A model generated the notes under the pieces. The model ran no database searches. It was not told where the DNA came from and saw only the letters and a program-made list of their open reading frames with translations. Below, in pieces: positions 15,027 through 22,478 of a stretch of 64,000 bases of DNA. The DNA is taken from positions 1 through 64,000 of the forward strand of contig NZ_LXKA01000338.1 in the NCBI RefSeq assembly GCF_001645125.1, written 5' to 3'. Within the stretch, counting starts at the first letter, position 1. Each line of letters starts with the position of its first letter. Origin of the DNA: Paraburkholderia ginsengiterrae. Its GTDB lineage: Bacteria; Pseudomonadota; Gammaproteobacteria; Burkholderiales; Burkholderiaceae. A program made the position numbers and the translations under genes.

Positions 15027-15974
15027 TCAGGAACCCGTCATCAGGTAATAACGGCCGTCGGCGCTGACATTGAAGCCGAATCCGCATGCCGTGGGTGAGC
15101 CGCGCGTGATGACATCAAGCGTCTCCGGCGCGGAGAGCCTGAACTCGATCAGGCATTTGTCGCCCCCTTGGGGGACTTCCTTCGACGTGTAGCGCGCGAG
15201 GTTGGTGATTTTTGCGGTGGCCTCGAGCGGCGCGTCGCCGGCGGTCACCATGACCGGCACGCGCGCCACGCCGTCGTAGAAACGCACGTAGGCAGACAGG
15301 CTGCCCATGTTCGCGCCGGGCTGACCATCGGCACCCACGGTCGGATACATGAAATCGCCGTCGATCCGGTAGACGCCGCGCCGCCCTTTCACCGGCTTCA
15401 CCTCAATGTTGTTCCAGGCACCGAAAAACAGGTAATGGGTAAAGCGCGCCCCGCCGGGCGGCACGCCCTTCACCACCGCCTTGCCGTCTATCGCGTCGAG
15501 ACGCTCGCGCGCAGCGGTAGTCGCGCGGCCGACCAGCGTGTCGCCGGGATAGTCGTCGCCGCGGCTCACAGCGGTTCGGTAGTAGGCGCGTGCGTCGGGC
15601 AGCGCGCCCAGCTTCACCTGCACGTCGCCCAGATGGACCAGCGCCATCGCCACGCGTGCCCGCGCGGAACTGGCGGCCTTCGGCGAGTTTTCCTCATCCG
15701 CCTGCATGACAGTGGCTTCGGCAAGCGCGGCCTCCATCCCGACCAGGGTCTGCGCCTCCTTGATGCGCCCTGATTCAAGCGCGGCCACGCCGAGTGCCGC
15801 GCATGACGCATTGGTGCGGCACGGCACGTCCTTACCGGACAGCAGATTACGGCGATAGAGATCGGCACGCGACGCGCGGTACTGTGCATCGGCGTTCACC
15901 GGCGCGGGCATGAGCGCGGCAAGCGTGGTTGAAGCGACAACGACAGTAGCGGCGAATGCGGTTCTGACGTTCAT
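15027..15974 (-). CDS. Secreted protein with N-terminal helical-repeat region, function unknown
   Basis: 315 aa with a signal peptide (hydrophobic stretch AFAATVVVASTTLAALM, cleavage near NADA). The middle, about 55-165, is Ala-rich and helical and resembles TPR-like repeats (LVHLGDVQVKLGALPDARAYYR). The C-terminal half is a beta-rich domain with paired cysteines (CLIEF and ACGFGF). It is probably periplasmic. I use the ATG at 15974 rather than the TTG two codons earlier. I do not recognise the family. It is divergent from the GntR regulator. Confidence 0.7.
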   Translation of the reverse strand: MNVRTAFAATVVVASTTLAALMPAPVNADAQYRASRADLYRRNLLSGKDVPCRTNASCAALGVAALESGRIKEAQTLVGMEAALAEATVMQADEENSPKAASSARARVAMALVHLGDVQVKLGALPDARAYYRTAVSRGDDYPGDTLVGRATTAARERLDAIDGKAVVKGVPPGGARFTHYLFFGAWNNIEVKPVKGRRGVYRIDGDFMYPTVGADGQPGANMGSLSAYVRFYDGVARVPVMVTAGDAPLEATAKITNLARYTSKEVPQGGDKCLIEFRLSAPETLDVITRGSPTACGFGFNVSADGRYYLMTGS

Positions 15975-16080
15975 GTGCAAGAGAATACGGTGACCGTGGC
16001 AAGTCGTCCACGATTGCGCAAATGGATAGCAGAAATAGTTGGTTTGGACGGCGGCACGCGCTCACTAGACTGTGACCCAT

Positions 16081-16094
16081 CTTGTCATAACAAG
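16081..16094. promoter_or_regulatory. HutC/GntR-type operator in front of the AprAB-like operon
   Basis: CTTGTCATAACAAG has inverted half sites CTTGT/ACAAG with a 4-bp centre, the pattern known for HutC-subfamily GntR regulators (TTGT-n4-ACAA). It ends 7 bp before the ATG of the GntR gene. This fits autoregulation and control of the whole operon. Confidence 0.7.
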
Positions 16095-16101
16095 TTGAGT
16101 C

Positions 16102-16893
16102 ATGTCGAAACCGGCCAGCAATCTCGTCCCGCTCGTGCCTCTGCCGCTCTATGCGCAGATCAAGGAAGCACTGCGCACACGCATTCTCGACGGCAGCTAT
16201 GCGCCGCATAGCCAGATGCCGTCCGAGCATGAACTCTGCGCGATGTTCGGCGTGAGCCGCATCACCGTCCGCCAGGCGCTCGGCGACCTGCAAAAGGAAG
16301 GGCTTCTATTCAAGCTGCACGGCAAGGGCACTTTCGTGTCGAAGCCCAAGGCGTTTCAGAACGTCAGTTCCCTGCAAGGCTTTGCCGAAGCCATGTCGGC
16401 GATGGGCTATGAAATCGTCAACCAGTTGCGCAGCTTGCGCGTCGTGAAGGCCGGGCGCCAGGTCGCGGCGCGGCTGAATATCGAAGAAGGCTCGCCGGTC
16501 ACCGAAATCCATCGCGTGCGCCTGCTCAATCGGGAGCCGGTGTCGCTCGAACTGACGTGGCTGCCTGAAACGCTCGGCGCGCGCCTCGCGCATGCGGATC
16601 TCGTCACGCGCGACATCTTCCTGATACTCGAAAACGACTGCGGCGTGCCGCTCGGTCACGCGGACATCGCGCTCGACGCCATGCTCGCTAACGAAGACAT
16701 CGCCGATGCCTTGCGCGTCGACGAAGGCAGCGCCGTCTTGCGCATTGACCGGCTGACGCATGACGCCGATGGCACACCTATCGACTACGAACACCTCTAC
16801 TTCCGCGGCGATGCATTCCAGTACCGGCTCCGCATCGACCGGGAGAAATCCACTCCAACAACCAAGCGCGCGGCAACAAGGAAAGCACCATGA
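16102..16893 (+). CDS. GntR family transcriptional regulator, HutC subfamily
   Basis: 263 aa. The N-terminal winged HTH has the family motifs PLYAQIKEALRTRILDGSY, QMPSEHELCAMFGVSRITVR and KLHGKGTFVS. The C-terminal UTRA effector-binding domain spans about 90-245 (EIHRVRLLNREPVSLELTW; DYEHLYFRGD). HutC-type regulators are usually repressors released by a small metabolite. Its stop overlaps the start of the flavoprotein (ATGA, 16890-16893), so it is part of that operon and the likely sensor of its substrate. A matching operator lies at 16081-16094. Confidence 0.94.
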   Translation: MSKPASNLVPLVPLPLYAQIKEALRTRILDGSYAPHSQMPSEHELCAMFGVSRITVRQALGDLQKEGLLFKLHGKGTFVSKPKAFQNVSSLQGFAEAMSAMGYEIVNQLRSLRVVKAGRQVAARLNIEEGSPVTEIHRVRLLNREPVSLELTWLPETLGARLAHADLVTRDIFLILENDCGVPLGHADIALDAMLANEDIADALRVDEGSAVLRIDRLTHDADGTPIDYEHLYFRGDAFQYRLRIDREKSTPTTKRAATRKAP

Positions 16894-18638
16894 ACACCCA
16901 TGTACTTGAATACGACGTTGTGGTCGTCGGCGGCGGCACGGCCGGACCGATGGCCGCTGTGAAGGCGAAGGAAAGCGATCCGGGCCTCAAGGTTCTGCTG
17001 CTGGAAAAGGCCCACGTCAAACGCAGCGGCGCGATCTCGATGGGCATGGACGGTCTGAACAACGCCGTCATCCCCGGTCATGCGACGCCCGAGCAATACA
17101 CGCGCGAAATCACCATCGCGAATGACGGCATCGTCGATCAGGAGGCCGTGTATGCGTATGCCAAGCACAGCTTCACCACCATCGAGGAACTCGACCGCTG
17201 GGGCGTGAAGTTCGAAAAGGACGGCACCGGCGACTATGCGGTCAAGAAAGTGCATCACATGGGATCGTACGTGTTGCCCATGCCCGAAGGGCACGACATC
17301 AAGAAAGTGCTGTACCGGCAATTGAAGCGCGCGCGCGTGGCGATCACCAACCGGATCGTCGCGACGCGCCTGCTGACGGACGCGCAGGGCAATGTCTGCG
17401 GCGTACTCGGCTTCGACTGCCGTACCGCGGACTTCTACGTGGTGCGCGCCAAGGCGGTGATCCTCGCGTGCGGCGCGGCCGGGCGTCTCGGCCTGCCCGC
17501 CTCCGGCTACCTGATGGGCACGTATGAGAATCCGACCAACGCCGGCGATGGATACGCGATGGCCTATCACGCGGGCGCCGCGCTCGCGAACCTCGAATGC
17601 TTCCAGATCAATCCGTTGATCAAGGACTACAACGGCCCCGCCTGTGCGTACGTCACAGGACCGCTGGGCGGATTCACGGCGAATGGCAAGGGCGAGCGCT
17701 TCATCGAATGCGACTACTGGAGTGGTCAGATGATGTGGGAGTTCTATCAGGAACTGCAAAGCGGCAACGGTCCGGTGTTCCTGAAACTCGACCACCTGGC
17801 CGAGGAAACGATTCAGACCATCGAACAGATCCTGCACACGAACGAACGCCCCAGCCGCGGACGCTTTCATGCGGGCCGCGGCACCGACTACCGGCAGCAG
17901 ATGGTCGAGATGCATATCTCCGAGATCGGCTTTTGCAGCGGCCACAGTGCTTCCGGCGTGTATGTGAACGCGCGCGCCGAAACGACCGTGCCGGGTCTCT
18001 ATGCCGCCGGCGACATGGCCGCCGTGCCGCACAACTACATGCTGGGCGCGTTCACCTACGGCTGGTTCGCCGGACGCAACGCGGCGGCCTTTGTCGCGGG
18101 ACGTGAGCATGCACCACTCGACCAGCAGCAGATCGAGGCCGAACGCGCGCGGATTTTTGCGCCGCTCGGGCGTGAACACGGTCTCGCGCCTGCGCAGGTC
18201 GAGTACAAGCTGCGCCGCATGGTCAACGACTACCTGCAACCACCGAAGGTCACGCGCAAGATGGAAATCGGCCTGCAACGCTTCTCCGAAATCGCCGACG
18301 ACATCGCGTCGATCAAGGCAACGAATCCGCACGAGCTGATGCGCACCGCCGAAGTGCGCGCGATTCGCGACTGCGCCGAAATGGCCGCGCGCGCCTCGCT
18401 ATTTCGCACCGAAAGCCGCTGGGGCCTCTATCACCATCGCGTCGACTATCCGCACCGCAGCGATGCCGACTGGTTCTGCCACACGCATCTGCGCAAGGAC
18501 GACGCGGGCCGCATGATCAGCGAGAAGCGCGCGGTCGAACCGTATATCGTGCCGCTCGCCGACACGGAGCTCGACTCGTATCGCAAGCTGCGCATCCCCG
18601 AAGCGAACGTCCGCCCGCTCGCCGACGCCACCGTCTAA
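16890..18638 (+). CDS. AprA/SdhA-like FAD-dependent oxidoreductase (flavoprotein subunit)
   Basis: 582 aa of the succinate dehydrogenase/fumarate reductase flavoprotein superfamily. The Rossmann FAD motif VVVGGGTAGPMAAVKA is at about 10-25 and the C-terminal FAD contact is LYAAGDMAAVPHNYMLGAFTYG (about 370). KRSGAISMGMDGLNN in the N-terminal part is closer to adenylylsulfate reductase AprA than to SdhA as I recall these families, and a two-cluster ferredoxin follows directly, as in aprBA. There is no sulfate reduction gene nearby and the protein is shorter than AprA, so substrate and direction are unknown. No signal peptide: cytoplasmic. Coupled to gntR by a 4-bp overlap. Confidence 0.85.
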   Translation: MNTHVLEYDVVVVGGGTAGPMAAVKAKESDPGLKVLLLEKAHVKRSGAISMGMDGLNNAVIPGHATPEQYTREITIANDGIVDQEAVYAYAKHSFTTIEELDRWGVKFEKDGTGDYAVKKVHHMGSYVLPMPEGHDIKKVLYRQLKRARVAITNRIVATRLLTDAQGNVCGVLGFDCRTADFYVVRAKAVILACGAAGRLGLPASGYLMGTYENPTNAGDGYAMAYHAGAALANLECFQINPLIKDYNGPACAYVTGPLGGFTANGKGERFIECDYWSGQMMWEFYQELQSGNGPVFLKLDHLAEETIQTIEQILHTNERPSRGRFHAGRGTDYRQQMVEMHISEIGFCSGHSASGVYVNARAETTVPGLYAAGDMAAVPHNYMLGAFTYGWFAGRNAAAFVAGREHAPLDQQQIEAERARIFAPLGREHGLAPAQVEYKLRRMVNDYLQPPKVTRKMEIGLQRFSEIADDIASIKATNPHELMRTAEVRAIRDCAEMAARASLFRTESRWGLYHHRVDYPHRSDADWFCHTHLRKDDAGRMISEKRAVEPYIVPLADTELDSYRKLRIPEANVRPLADATV

Positions 18639-18652
18639 CAGGAGTCCAAACG

Positions 18653-18898
18653 ATGTCCTACACGCCTCACGAAATTTTCCAGCGCAGTTCGGCGCCCGTC
18701 ACGATCGACGAAAACAAATGCATCGCCGACAAGGGTTGCACCGTGTGCGTCGACGTATGCCCGCTCGACCTGCTGGCGATCGACATGAGCAAGGGCAAGG
18801 CCTACATGCAATTCGACGAATGCTGGTACTGCATGCCCTGCGAACAGGATTGCCCGACCGGCGCGGTCAAGGTCGAGATTCCCTACCTGCTGCGCTAG
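18653..18898 (+). CDS. 2[4Fe-4S] ferredoxin, AprB-like electron-transfer subunit
   Basis: 81 aa. Eight cysteines form two cluster motifs: CIADKGCTVCVDVCP and CWYCMPCEQDCP. The second, with its Trp between the cysteines, resembles the AprB motif CWECYSC. It lies 14 bp after the flavoprotein with an AGGAG ribosome site and is almost certainly its electron partner, passing electrons between FAD and an unknown donor or acceptor. Shorter than AprB because it lacks the C-terminal extension that wraps around AprA. Confidence 0.9.
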   Translation: MSYTPHEIFQRSSAPVTIDENKCIADKGCTVCVDVCPLDLLAIDMSKGKAYMQFDECWYCMPCEQDCPTGAVKVEIPYLLR

Positions 18899-18983
18899 CG
18901 CGCAGGTCTTGCACGATCCAATGTATCTCATCGTGTCCCGGCCGTACGCGATCTCCCAACCTCATGCCCCCAAGCCTTTGCTC

Positions 18984-19979
18984 ATGACCGATTTCAATCT
19001 GTTGACTCACGATCCCGATGCGCTCGCGCCCGCCGCGGCAGCATTGCTGCCGCGGCTTGCCGATGCCGACCCGGCCGTGCGCCGGATCGCGCTGCTAGAC
19101 CTCGCGGATCTCGAAGAACCCGGCGCGCTGCCGGCTATCGCGCACGCGCTGGCTCACGACGCCGCCCCGGCAGTCCGGCGCGAAGCGGCGCTCGTGCTGG
19201 GCGCATGGGAAGAAGCATCGATTGTCGACGCGCTCTGCCGCGCATTGCTCGATCCCGCCGCAGAAGTATGCAGCGCCGCTGCCGCCAGCCTGGCCACGCT
19301 GAAGGAAAGCGCGTCCGCTCCAGTGCTGGCCCGCTGGGCCGAACATGACGATCCGTTCGTGCAAGCCGCCGTGCTGCGCGCGTTGCGCGAGCTGCGTTAT
19401 GCCGGTGCTCTGGAACCCGCGCTCCGTGCGCTCGAGCACGCCGACGACAGCGTGCGCGCCGAAGCCGTGGTGCTGCTCGGCTGGCTGAAGGACGCGCGCG
19501 CGTTGGCGCCGCTCGCTCACGCCTTGACCTCGGACGCCAACGCGGACATTCGTCGCGCGGCCGTTGGCGCGTTGGGCTTCGCGCCGCCCACCGACGCCTC
19601 GACCTTGGCCGCGCTGCTGCAAGCGCTTGACGACCGGATCTGGCAGGTCCGCGAAGAAGCCGCGACGACGCTCGGCAAGCTGCGCGTGAACGCCGCGTGC
19701 GACGCGCTGAGCACCGCGCTCGGCGACGACTACTGGCAGGTCCGTCTGCGCGCCGCACGCGCGCTGGGGCAACTCGGCGACCGCGCCGCGGCATGGCCGG
19801 TCGCCGGGCTGTTGTCGAGTCCGATCAGCAATCTGCGCAAGGAAGCCGCGCTCGCGTTGGGTGAACTGCGCGAACCCGCCACGCTGGACGCCTTACGCGA
19901 CGCGCTCGACGACGCGGACCCCGAAGTGCGCAAGGCGGTAAGAATTGCGGTGCGGCAGATCGAGCAAGCCCTGCCATGA
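18984..19979 (+). CDS. HEAT-repeat (PBS lyase-like) protein
   Basis: About 331 aa made almost entirely of 30-residue alpha-helical HEAT/PBS-lyase-type repeats with the recurring pattern VR-REA-LALG-L (for example DPAVRRIALLDLADLEEP, DSVRAEAVVLLGWLKD, DPEVRKAVRIAVRQIEQ). About nine to ten repeats are discernible. Such proteins act as scaffolds or chaperones rather than enzymes; placement after the flavoprotein and ferredoxin suggests help in assembly or partner docking (inference). I use the ATG at 18984; an ATG at 18921 and a TTG at 18909 are in frame. It overlaps the next gene by 4 bp. Confidence 0.87.
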   Translation: MTDFNLLTHDPDALAPAAAALLPRLADADPAVRRIALLDLADLEEPGALPAIAHALAHDAAPAVRREAALVLGAWEEASIVDALCRALLDPAAEVCSAAAASLATLKESASAPVLARWAEHDDPFVQAAVLRALRELRYAGALEPALRALEHADDSVRAEAVVLLGWLKDARALAPLAHALTSDANADIRRAAVGALGFAPPTDASTLAALLQALDDRIWQVREEAATTLGKLRVNAACDALSTALGDDYWQVRLRAARALGQLGDRAAAWPVAGLLSSPISNLRKEAALALGELREPATLDALRDALDDADPEVRKAVRIAVRQIEQALP

Positions 19980-20302
19980 AGTCACCGCACGCGATCGAAA
20001 TGGATGATGAAGCGCACGCCGTGATCCTGCACTGGCCCGGCGACACCGTTCAGCGCATCGCTCAACGCACGCTGCGCGATGCGTGCCCGTGCGCACAGTG
20101 CCGCCGGCTGCGCATCAGCGGCGACAACCCGGCATGCGCGGGCAATGTGACCGTGACCGGCATCCGGCCGATGGGCTACGGCGTCCAGCTGGTGTTCAGC
20201 GACGCGCACGAGCGCGGCATTTTCCCGTGGCCTTACCTCGAAGGCCTGCAAGATACCCTTACAATGGCGGCGGCGAGCTGTCGTGACATGCGGGATACAT
20301 AA
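19976..20302 (+). CDS. DUF971 (GBBH-like N-terminal domain) protein
   Basis: 108 aa. Motifs typical of DUF971, the domain found alone or at the N-terminus of gamma-butyrobetaine hydroxylases, are WPGDTVQRIAQRTLRDACPC, CAQCRR and the C-terminal IFPWPYLEGL. The cysteines in DACPCAQC could bind zinc or an Fe-S cluster. Stand-alone members occur near Fe-S proteins; the function is not established. It overlaps the HEAT gene (ATGA), so the four structural genes behind gntR form one translationally coupled unit. Confidence 0.85.
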   Translation: MKSPHAIEMDDEAHAVILHWPGDTVQRIAQRTLRDACPCAQCRRLRISGDNPACAGNVTVTGIRPMGYGVQLVFSDAHERGIFPWPYLEGLQDTLTMAAASCRDMRDT

Positions 20303-20408: not shown

Positions 20409-22478
20409 ATGCAGAGCACATACAATTTTTGGCTGGTAGCGATCTCGTTCGCCGTCGCGACGCTTGCGTCGTACACGGCACTGGATCTGACCGGTCGCAT
20501 TTACATCCTGGCGTCGTCACGTCAGCGGCACGCCTGGCGCCTGGGTGGCGCGGCGGCGCTCGGCGTCGGCATCTGGTCGATGCATTTCATCGCGATGCTG
20601 GCCTTTTCACTGCCGATCCCGCTCGGCTACGATTTCGCGACCACCGCCTGTTCGCTCGCGCTCGCGATCGGTGTCTCGTATCTGGCGCTGACCATCACGA
20701 CCCGTGCGCGGCTCACAGTGGCTCACCTGCTGGCCGGCGGCGTGCTGATGGGGTTCGGCATTGCCGGCATGCATTACACCGGCATGGCAGCCATGCAGAT
20801 GTCGCCGGCCATCCACTATCAGCCGACGTGGTTCGCGGCCTCGATCGCGATTGCGATCGGCGCGGCAACCGCCGCGCTGTGGATCGCCCGCGCGCTCGTC
20901 AACGACGGCCAGCGGCACGTCGTGCGCATGCGCGCCGCCGCGGCGCTGGTGATGGCCGTCGCGATCACCGGCATGCACTACACCGCCATGGCCGCCGCCG
21001 AGTTTCCGCTCGGTGCCGTGTGCGGCGCGGCCAAAGGCGTGAACGCCGACTGGCTCGCCACCACGGTGATCCTGTTCACCTTCGCGATTCTGATCGTCAC
21101 GCTGCTGCTGTCGCGCTTCGACGCGCGCACCACCTTTCTGGCCGGCGCGGTGTCGAACCTGAACGGCCAGATCGTGCGACTCGCCACGCTGGATACGCTA
21201 ACCGGACTGCCCAACCGCACCACGCTGACAGATCGCATCGAACGCGCCATTCATAGTTCGCGCCGGCAGCGAACCCTCTTCGCGATCCTCTTCATGGATC
21301 TCGACGGCTTCAAGACGATCAACGACTCGCTCGGCCACTCCGCCGGCGACCAGGTACTGACCGCGTTCGCCCAGCGGCTGCTCCTGTGCGTGCGTGCGAC
21401 CGATACGGTAGCGCGGCTGGGCGGCGACGAGTTCGTGGTGCTGTCCGAAAATCTCGACAGCCGCGAAGCCGCCGGTGCGCTGGCCGAAGCCGTGCTCGAC
21501 CGGATGCGCCAGGGCATGTGGACCGATTCGCAGCCGCTCCAGGTCATGCCGAGCATCGGCATCGCTCTTTATCCGCACGACGGCGATACCGTCGACACCC
21601 TGCTGAAACACGCGGACGCGGCCATGTACGAAGCCAAACGCGCGGGCCGCAGCACCTACCGCTTCTTCGAGCGCAGCATGAACGAGGCGGCCACGCGCAC
21701 GCTGCAGATTCAGAGTGCGTTGCACGAGGCGCTGGCCGCCGGGCATTTCTCGCTGCACTTCCAGCCGAAGTTTCACGGCCGCGCCGACTCGCTGGCAGGC
21801 GCCGAAGCGCTGATCCGTCTGCATCACCCGCAGCTCGGCGCGCTGGCGCCGCTCGAGTTCATTCCGATTGCCGAGCGCTCGGGGCAGATCGTCCAGATCG
21901 GCTATTGGGTCGTGCGCGAAGCGTGCCGGCAGATCCGCAGCTGGGTCGCGCAAGGCCTGCCGCCGGTCAGAGTGGCGATCAACCTGTCGCCGCGCCAGTT
22001 GCTGCAGCCCGATCTCGTGTCGAGCATCCTCGAGATCGTCCAGGCCGAAGGTGTCGAATGCGACCAGATCATGTTCGAGATCACCGAAACCGTGGCGATG
22101 CAGGACGCGCCCAAAACCATCGAAATGATCCGCGAGTTCCAGGCCAGCGGCTTTGAAATCGCCATCGACGATTTCGGCACCGGCTATTCGAGCCTCGCCT
22201 ATCTGCAGCGCTTTCGCGTCAAGCAATTGAAGATCGACCGGTTCTTCACGAACGGCCTCGACGAGCACGGCCCGGAAGGCAGCGCGATCGTGTCGGCGAT
22301 CATCGCGCTCGCGCACTCGCTGGAAATGGACGTGGTGGCCGAAGGCGTCGAAACGGAATCGCAACGGGACATACTTAGAACGATGAGATGCGATGAGATG
22401 CAAGGCTTCCTGCTTGGCAAACCGCTTAGCGCCGAGGATTTCGGCGACCTGCTGCGGGAAAGGGCGGAGGCCGCATGA
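20409..22478 (+). CDS. MHYT-GGDEF-EAL membrane c-di-GMP signalling protein
   Basis: 689 aa. The N-terminal MHYT sensor domain (about 1-245) has seven hydrophobic segments and three M-H repeats (SMHFIAM, GMHYTGM, GMHYTAM), proposed to bind copper and sense a diatomic gas. A GGDEF domain (about 265-425) has the intact signature RLGGDEF and an EAL domain (about 435-685) has GAEALIR, EITE, DDFGTGYSS and KIDRFF. Both catalytic motifs look intact, so it may make and break c-di-GMP. Monocistronic, upstream of an orphan 7-TM protein. Confidence 0.94.
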   Translation: MQSTYNFWLVAISFAVATLASYTALDLTGRIYILASSRQRHAWRLGGAAALGVGIWSMHFIAMLAFSLPIPLGYDFATTACSLALAIGVSYLALTITTRARLTVAHLLAGGVLMGFGIAGMHYTGMAAMQMSPAIHYQPTWFAASIAIAIGAATAALWIARALVNDGQRHVVRMRAAAALVMAVAITGMHYTAMAAAEFPLGAVCGAAKGVNADWLATTVILFTFAILIVTLLLSRFDARTTFLAGAVSNLNGQIVRLATLDTLTGLPNRTTLTDRIERAIHSSRRQRTLFAILFMDLDGFKTINDSLGHSAGDQVLTAFAQRLLLCVRATDTVARLGGDEFVVLSENLDSREAAGALAEAVLDRMRQGMWTDSQPLQVMPSIGIALYPHDGDTVDTLLKHADAAMYEAKRAGRSTYRFFERSMNEAATRTLQIQSALHEALAAGHFSLHFQPKFHGRADSLAGAEALIRLHHPQLGALAPLEFIPIAERSGQIVQIGYWVVREACRQIRSWVAQGLPPVRVAINLSPRQLLQPDLVSSILEIVQAEGVECDQIMFEITETVAMQDAPKTIEMIREFQASGFEIAIDDFGTGYSSLAYLQRFRVKQLKIDRFFTNGLDEHGPEGSAIVSAIIALAHSLEMDVVAEGVETESQRDILRTMRCDEMQGFLLGKPLSAEDFGDLLRERAEAA

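Follow-up and report, generated by a model that had tools for sequence, protein, structure and literature searches.

We analyzed a 64,000-nucleotide stretch of the Paraburkholderia ginsengiterrae genome (contig NZ_LXKA01000338.1, hereafter the window; genome size 8.53 Mb), in which five co-oriented open reading frames (ORFs) on the plus strand span positions 16102–20302. They encode a 263-aa GntR/UTRA regulator (gntR, 16102–16893; Pfam GntR 79.5 bits, UTRA 130.9 bits), an AprA-related flavin adenine dinucleotide (FAD) flavoprotein of 582 aa (16890–18638; NCBIfam NF006131/PRK08275, with FAD_binding_2 and Succ_DH_flav_C domains), an 81-aa AprB-like 2x[4Fe-4S] ferredoxin (18653–18898; Fer4_7), a 331-aa HEAT-repeat protein (18984–19979; HEAT_2 171.4 bits, scored on a longer reading), and a 108-aa DUF971 (GBBH-like_N) protein (19976–20302; Pfam 64.3 bits). 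Overlaps of 4 bp join gntR to the flavoprotein gene and the HEAT gene to the DUF971 gene, and the same overlaps occur in 27/34 and 31/34 loci of the genus, respectively, with starts chosen by script. A preliminary description of this DNA had reported five tightly spaced genes with such overlaps, and all ORFs, domains, and overlaps were found again. The start of the HEAT gene is most likely the ATG at 18984 rather than an alternative TTG at 18909, because the resulting length, 331 aa, is that of the annotated proteins of P. sprentiae and P. largidicola. The plasmid records closest to the window flavoprotein are from Paraburkholderia.

To place the flavoprotein, we compared it with characterized families. 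It passes the NF006131 model with 1134.2 bits (cut-off 587) and falls far below those of AprA (TIGR02061, 178.2 vs 641.75 bits) and SdhA/FrdA (TIGR01812, 169.3 vs 567.3 bits); a search for aprA at 1e-150 gave no match in the same genome. Phylogenetic analysis of 46 rows recovered the family as one clade (SH-aLRT 92), with AprA and the 3'-phosphoadenosine 5'-phosphosulfate (PAPS) reductase of Methanothermococcus thermolithotrophicus (MtPAPSR) as its sister group and SdhA and NadB as outgroup. The program noted long branches in this tree, one locus (L004) was left out as it gave no match, and the rows of the family were cut off at 640 aa, which truncated the two actinobacterial ones. PRK06854-type proteins, which are other AprA-like proteins and are not represented in the tree, were not found above the cut-off in the 11 genomes searched for them. 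The comparison with AprA, SdhA, FrdA, and aspartate oxidase that the preliminary description had proposed thus puts the flavoprotein in a separate clade, inside no characterized clade sampled. The nearest PDB sequence is the alpha subunit of MtPAPSR, followed by AprA. AlphaFold2 modeled the flavoprotein poorly (mean pLDDT 62.8), and our statements on the active site rest on alignment instead; a Foldseek search with this model also ranked MtPAPSR and AprA first.

Multiple alignment revealed that the window protein and 9/9 other family members aligned have Leu, Tyr, and Val in the columns of Archaeoglobus fulgidus AprA R265, W234, and Q145. In 12/12 AprA sequences these columns are Arg, Trp, and Gln, and the R265 column is also Arg in MtPAPSR. 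R265 and W234 are substrate-site residues of AprA. Q145 is conserved according to PMC10322725. On the other hand, the columns of AprA Asn74 and of a later His are kept throughout the family. Compared with Escherichia coli SdhA, the catalytic and dicarboxylate-binding Arg/His columns are absent or changed, and a Gly stands in the column of the flavin-linking His. The family has conserved motifs of its own: ECFQINPLIKDYNGP (allowing Y for F and M for I; the pattern E-C-[FY]-Q-I-N-P-L) in 117/118 flavoproteins, DYWSGQM in 117/118, and PHNYM[LI]G in 118/118. A true adenosine 5'-phosphosulfate (APS) reductase is ruled out by the TIGR02061 score and the three changed columns, and a plain succinate dehydrogenase or fumarate reductase by scores, tree, and residues. 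Judged from its sequence, the enzyme is thus AprAB-related and neither of the two, and the replacement of both AprA and SdhA substrate residues supports the earlier suggestion of a substrate or role different from that of AprBA. Annotated plasmid records name this protein fumarate reductase/succinate dehydrogenase; given the lost R265 and the lost SdhA catalytic arginines, this name misleads, and pathway reconstructions that use it may misread the module.

The partner proteins are also conserved. The eight cysteines previously read in the ferredoxin are present, and each of them, together with Trp58, is invariant in 117/117 aligned sequences. Trp58 lies within a CWYC motif whose counterpart is CWEC in 11/11 AprB rows taken from the DNA adjoining aprA (12 loci were read, of which L162 gave none). 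The C-terminal tail of AprB is absent, the ferredoxin having 81 aa vs 140–205 aa in the stop-to-stop frames of the 11 AprB rows. The HEAT protein was modeled by AlphaFold2 as an all-helical repeat solenoid (mean pLDDT 95.8), whose closest folds in the PDB are those of alphaRep and further HEAT/ARM repeats. The flavoprotein and the HEAT protein of Tsukamurella are fused into one 893-aa protein, and this actinobacterial fusion favors a structural role for HEAT. The DUF971 protein contains a putative Zn motif, C37-x-C39-x2-C42...H78, with C37 in 78/82, C39 in 79/82, C42 in 79/82, and H78 in 82/82 aligned sequences; by sequence it hits three PDB entries to which no function is assigned. An Mrp-type ATPase and DUF971 are joined in HCF101. 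In comparison with these HCF101/Mrp-NBP35 Fe-S carriers, the DUF971 protein of the window stands alone, and three cyanobacterial plasmid modules also carry an Mrp/NBP35 ATPase 3' of HEAT. HEAT is probably a scaffold and DUF971 an assembly factor; the idea of the preliminary description that both could be assembly factors is plausible. A role in anti-phage defense was considered and rejected: among four proteins scanned with PADLOC, the HEAT protein alone was matched, by two HEAT-type entries.

We then analyzed the distribution of the module. The flavoprotein was detected in 34 of 59 genomes of the genus, including the genome of the window (E ≤ 1e-100), and the order gntR-flavoprotein-ferredoxin-HEAT-DUF971 is kept in 34/34 of these loci, which indicates that the five genes are no chance grouping. 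In the phylum of the window it is present in 21/398 genomes (again including this one), belonging to 11 of 212 genera. A survey of a plasmid collection (51 flavoprotein records, some chromosome-sized) found carriers in Rhizobium, Sinorhizobium, Mesorhizobium, Bradyrhizobium, Methylobacterium, Methylocystis, Acidithiobacillus, and Acinetobacter, as well as in three cyanobacterial genera, Tsukamurella, and Nonomuraea. Thus, the module occurs in Proteobacteria, Cyanobacteria, and Actinobacteria, plasmids included. In a 10-row alignment across these three phyla, flavoprotein identity to the first row is 56–69%, which fits gene transfer together with one conserved function. Among 117 long loci, all of which were picked by the flavoprotein, with many near-copies and some ended by contig edges, score-limited searches detected the ferredoxin in 116, HEAT in 112, and DUF971 in 81 (the window not counted), so HEAT and DUF971 are kept beside the flavoprotein well beyond the genus, as the preliminary description had required of a real unit.

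Within the genus, the median pN/pS of the flavoprotein relative to the window is 0.13 for 13 importer-bearing loci (see below) and 0.12 for 20 importer-less ones, and the latter value suggests that the importer-less form is under selection. Medians for HEAT (0.46–0.47) and DUF971 (0.54–0.62) indicate that both evolve faster than the flavoprotein. A decayed module was found in genome G008 (L257 7097–9063), where matches to the ferredoxin, HEAT, and DUF971 are left after the operator and a shortened gntR; the gntR frame, read by eye, ends in flavoprotein C-terminal sequence, the rest of the flavoprotein being gone.

The predicted operator is a palindrome, CTTGTCATAACAAG, at 16081–16094 (+), 7 bp 5' of the gntR ATG. 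It is conserved just 5' of gntR in aligned relatives, some of which differ from it by one or two bases (alignment of L001 and L005–L026; an upstream stretch was obtained from 22 of 23 loci, L025 giving none). The pattern CTTGTYATDACAAG has a single site in the genome of the window and in each of 34/34 module genomes, 0.77–0.84 kb 5' of the flavoprotein by listed coordinates, while a reversed control pattern occurs in 1/40 genomes. Of six genus genomes lacking a flavoprotein match, five also lack the pattern and the sixth, G008, has it beside the decayed module. A search for a wider regulon, which might have revealed a replacement transporter, found the exact pattern at the module operon alone in the genomes searched, mismatched sites not being searched genome-wide. 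The pattern CTTGT-N4-ACAAG was not found in five sulfatase loci (described below) and 11 other module loci, indicating that this operator is specific to the window's branch and its near kin. These data suggest that GntR is an autorepressor acting at one palindromic operator per genome.

A linked transporter was then found. Between the ferredoxin and HEAT genes, 13/34 genus loci carry genes for a substrate-binding protein (SBP), a permease, and an ATPase. This site is empty in the other 21, including the window, where it corresponds to an 85-bp gap (18899–18983). The three genes encode an NMT1/NosL-type ATP-binding cassette (ABC) importer related to SsuA; the SBP is present in 94/117 of the wider loci, and its best NCBIfam match is SsuA_fam, below the cut-off of that model. 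The survey for linked transporters suggested in the preliminary description thus yielded a frequent partner, whose presence changed at least three times on the flavoprotein tree. No SBP match was detected anywhere in the window's own genome (E ≤ 1e-40), and among the 21 importer-less genus genomes only G025 has an SBP relative elsewhere (1e-40), which is linked to a sulfatase. In the module SBP, a NosL-like domain is fused to the C-terminal end of an NMT1/SsuA-like domain (L065 12049–13476; L071 5833–7344). A LysR regulator adjoining a cyanobacterial module (L071 9388–11424) carries a fused NMT1-like binding domain.

The same importer family is also found with a different enzyme. The SBP search found two genus genomes with a module-type SBP away from the flavoprotein, in operons of genes for GntR, the three importer components (SBP, permease, and ATPase), an arylsulfatase, a formylglycine-generating enzyme (FGE), and SulP; for one record, the annotation as deposited is in agreement. 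Two more genus genomes have a like sulfatase operon, giving four in all (L258, L259 = L260, L263, and L264). In addition, a Gordonia plasmid carries GntR, arylsulfatase, FGE, and ABC genes of the module-importer family, with SulP as separate matches, and a Mycobacterium plasmid carries arylsulfatase, FGE, GntR, and SulP. The importer-linked sulfatase resembles arylsulfatases and steryl-sulfatase, and its N-terminus, read by eye, has no signal peptide. Among 43 plasmid records of the SBP family, 39 also have the flavoprotein, two have the sulfatase set, and two are from Acidithiobacillus caldus, in one of which, the one viewed, no enzyme gene adjoins the SBP. In a phylogenetic tree of 55 SBP rows (with a long-branch warning), the four genus sulfatase SBPs group with 19 flavoprotein-linked SBPs in a 23-member clade (support 95), and the Gordonia SBP joins two actinobacterial flavoprotein-linked SBPs (support 92); the five sulfatase-linked SBPs thus need two separate placements among 46 flavoprotein-linked ones. 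Two sulfatase and two FGE queries matched 0/117 flavoprotein loci. The simplest reading of this pairing would be that both enzyme sets act on the cargo of the importer, the sulfatase hydrolyzing it to sulfate and the flavoprotein set reducing it to sulfite.

Genes which might supply electrons are found in or beside the module in some of the 117 loci: a ferredoxin-NADP reductase (FNR)-like protein in 12, an FdxA-type ferredoxin in 14, and, 3' of the module, a protein of 1196 aa containing an NAD/FAD oxidoreductase domain in six (L156 16760–20350 and relatives). Their presence suggests that electrons flow into the flavoprotein. We also searched the neighborhoods with a sulfur panel (sulfite/sulfate exporter types, SsuA-type SBPs, luciferase-type monooxygenases, TauD, 3-mercaptopropionate dioxygenase, and rhodanese). 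Sulfur-type neighbors were detected in 7/20 module windows vs 1/40 control windows from the same genomes (1e-15; Fisher P-value = 0.0013), and also in 13/80 named loci and 10/17 plasmid loci, two sets which have no controls and partly include the loci the queries came from. TauE/SafE or YeiH-type transporters adjoin the module in several unrelated lineages. As a separate observation, a rhizobial module (L073 19302–23445) has as neighbors two luciferase-like monooxygenases, an M20 aminoacylase, and a GNAT protein, a set which resembles an S-alkylcysteine salvage operon.

Based on the relationship to APS/PAPS reductases, the electron-supply genes, the pairing of importer and sulfatase, and the sulfur-type neighbors, we infer the class of substrate, the direction, the product, and the chemistry of the reaction. 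A reductive role in sulfur scavenging, with sulfate esters and sulfonates taken together as substrates, appears probable. For the transporter-less form seen in the window, our leading but tentative reading is that a sulfo group is removed reductively from a small organosulfur anion, with an organic sulfate ester (R-O-SO3-) as the best candidate, to give R-OH and sulfite. Stated in full as a reductive sulfatase, that is, a ferredoxin-fed flavoenzyme converting a sulfate ester (or sulfamate) to an alcohol (or amine) and sulfite, the proposal is rather doubtful. In such a scheme, many lineages would take up the substrate through the NosL-tailed, SsuA-related importer, and the window lineage would use another route. 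Electrons from NAD(P)H would reach the AprB-like ferredoxin, in some lineages via the dedicated FNR and FdxA, and from there would reduce the FAD of the AprA-like subunit. The FAD would then attack sulfur as in APS/PAPS reductase, forming an FAD-sulfite adduct and expelling the organic alcohol, after which sulfite would be released and either assimilated or exported. The HEAT solenoid may hold the complex together, DUF971 may help Fe-S or flavoprotein assembly, and GntR would repress its own operon at the single palindrome.

Several observations weigh against this proposal. The arginine thought to hold the sulfate of APS (R265) is lost from the flavoprotein, and 25/59 genus genomes lack the flavoprotein altogether. 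The 21/34 genus loci without the importer include the window itself, so these loci may use an internal substrate or another one. No more than five sulfatase-linked loci were found, this type of SBP occurs in 4/197 relatives, and a sulfatase query matched 0/398 phylum genomes at a strict limit (1e-130) without a positive control; SulP-like matches, in turn, also occur close to flavoprotein loci in two cases (L040 and L143). The electron-supply genes occur in a minority of loci. As to the sulfur-type neighbors, the panel was chosen after neighbors in other loci had been viewed, five of the seven positive windows have YeiH from one rhizobial family and the other two TauD from one family, and at 1e-25 the number of positive windows drops to 4/20 (controls were run at 1e-15 only). 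Adjoining exporters do not prove that sulfite is the product.

The SBP could equally carry sulfonates, and the same machinery might then act on a sulfonate (C-SO3-) or an S-sulfo compound, providing an O2-independent route to sulfonate sulfur. The SBPs score best, below cut-off, to SsuA_fam and the taurine-binding family, and SsuA-type SBPs, luciferase-type monooxygenases, and TauD are among the neighbors. However, the importer family pairs with arylsulfatase, whose substrates are esters, twice in the SBP tree, and a C-S bond would be a poor chemical target for an attack of the APS reductase kind, so that we regard reductive desulfonation as unlikely. It is quite unlikely that the flavoprotein is instead a reductase or dehydrogenase of a carboxylate or another anion, with incidental sulfur neighbors. 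The FrdA/SdhA superfamily performs mostly C=C chemistry, which together with the loss of the AprA substrate residues would suit such an enzyme, but the SdhA catalytic arginine columns are absent as well, the closest relatives are APS/PAPS reductases, and the importer family is paired with a sulfatase.

AprBA is known to run in both directions in sulfur bacteria, and genes of sulfite/sulfate exporter type lie nearby; a sulfite-oxidizing or detoxifying enzyme, AprBA in reverse, was therefore also considered. The lost Arg/Trp/Gln columns of AprA, the FNR-like and FdxA genes of some lineages, and the dedicated importer of many lineages all make this very improbable. The NCBI name is all that speaks for an ordinary succinate dehydrogenase or fumarate reductase. 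Such an identity is hardly conceivable in view of the TIGR01812 score, the separate clade, and the missing catalytic Arg columns, and the same genome holds a separate SdhA-like gene.

Among known systems, MtPAPSR, the top match in sequence and fold, is the most similar: it also combines a FAD subunit with a short 2x[4Fe-4S] subunit (104-aa chain; PDB 8a8o; PMC10322725). It differs in having R in the R265 column (Leu in the window protein) and W where the module has Tyr, in grouping with AprA in the tree, and in lacking the HEAT, DUF971, GntR, and ABC partners of the module. AprBA shares the FAD fold, the AprB-type CWxC ferredoxin, and the conserved Asn and His columns; R265, W234, and Q145 are changed in the module, whose ferredoxin lacks the AprB tail. 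SdhA/FrdA and NadB have the superfamily fold in common with the flavoprotein but form a separate clade. The clusters of arylsulfatase, FGE, and ABC importer (L260 and L261) share the SBP/ABC and GntR families with the module, while a hydrolytic formylglycine enzyme and SulP replace the flavoprotein-ferredoxin-HEAT set.

The module is widespread and apparently unstudied. No paper tied to the operon was found in an open-access library (subscription journals were outside the search), in agreement with the earlier view of an undescribed pathway. The five-gene AprAB-like unit of the preliminary description stands, but that description lacked the importer, the electron-supply genes, the links to sulfur and sulfatase genes, and the operator, all of which were found here. 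Soil organic sulfur occurs mainly as sulfate esters and sulfonates (PMC4267179). If a reductive route to sulfite is true, it would be an extra way to mobilize soil organosulfur beside hydrolysis and oxygenases. A reductive sulfatase would, moreover, skip hydrolysis and ATP-dependent sulfate activation, saving ATP, and would be a stand-in for the formylglycine arylsulfatase that members of two phyla have next to this importer family. The module also offers a testable context for HEAT and DUF971 proteins.

Scans for promoters and terminators gave no signal above shuffles at the start or end of the operon, and no RNA elements or tRNAs were detected in the window. The operon is flanked by a gene on the minus strand (15027–15980) whose protein has a weak TPR match and by a plus-strand gene (20409–22478) for a GGDEF/EAL-type protein, as read from its ORF, both with no evident link to the module.

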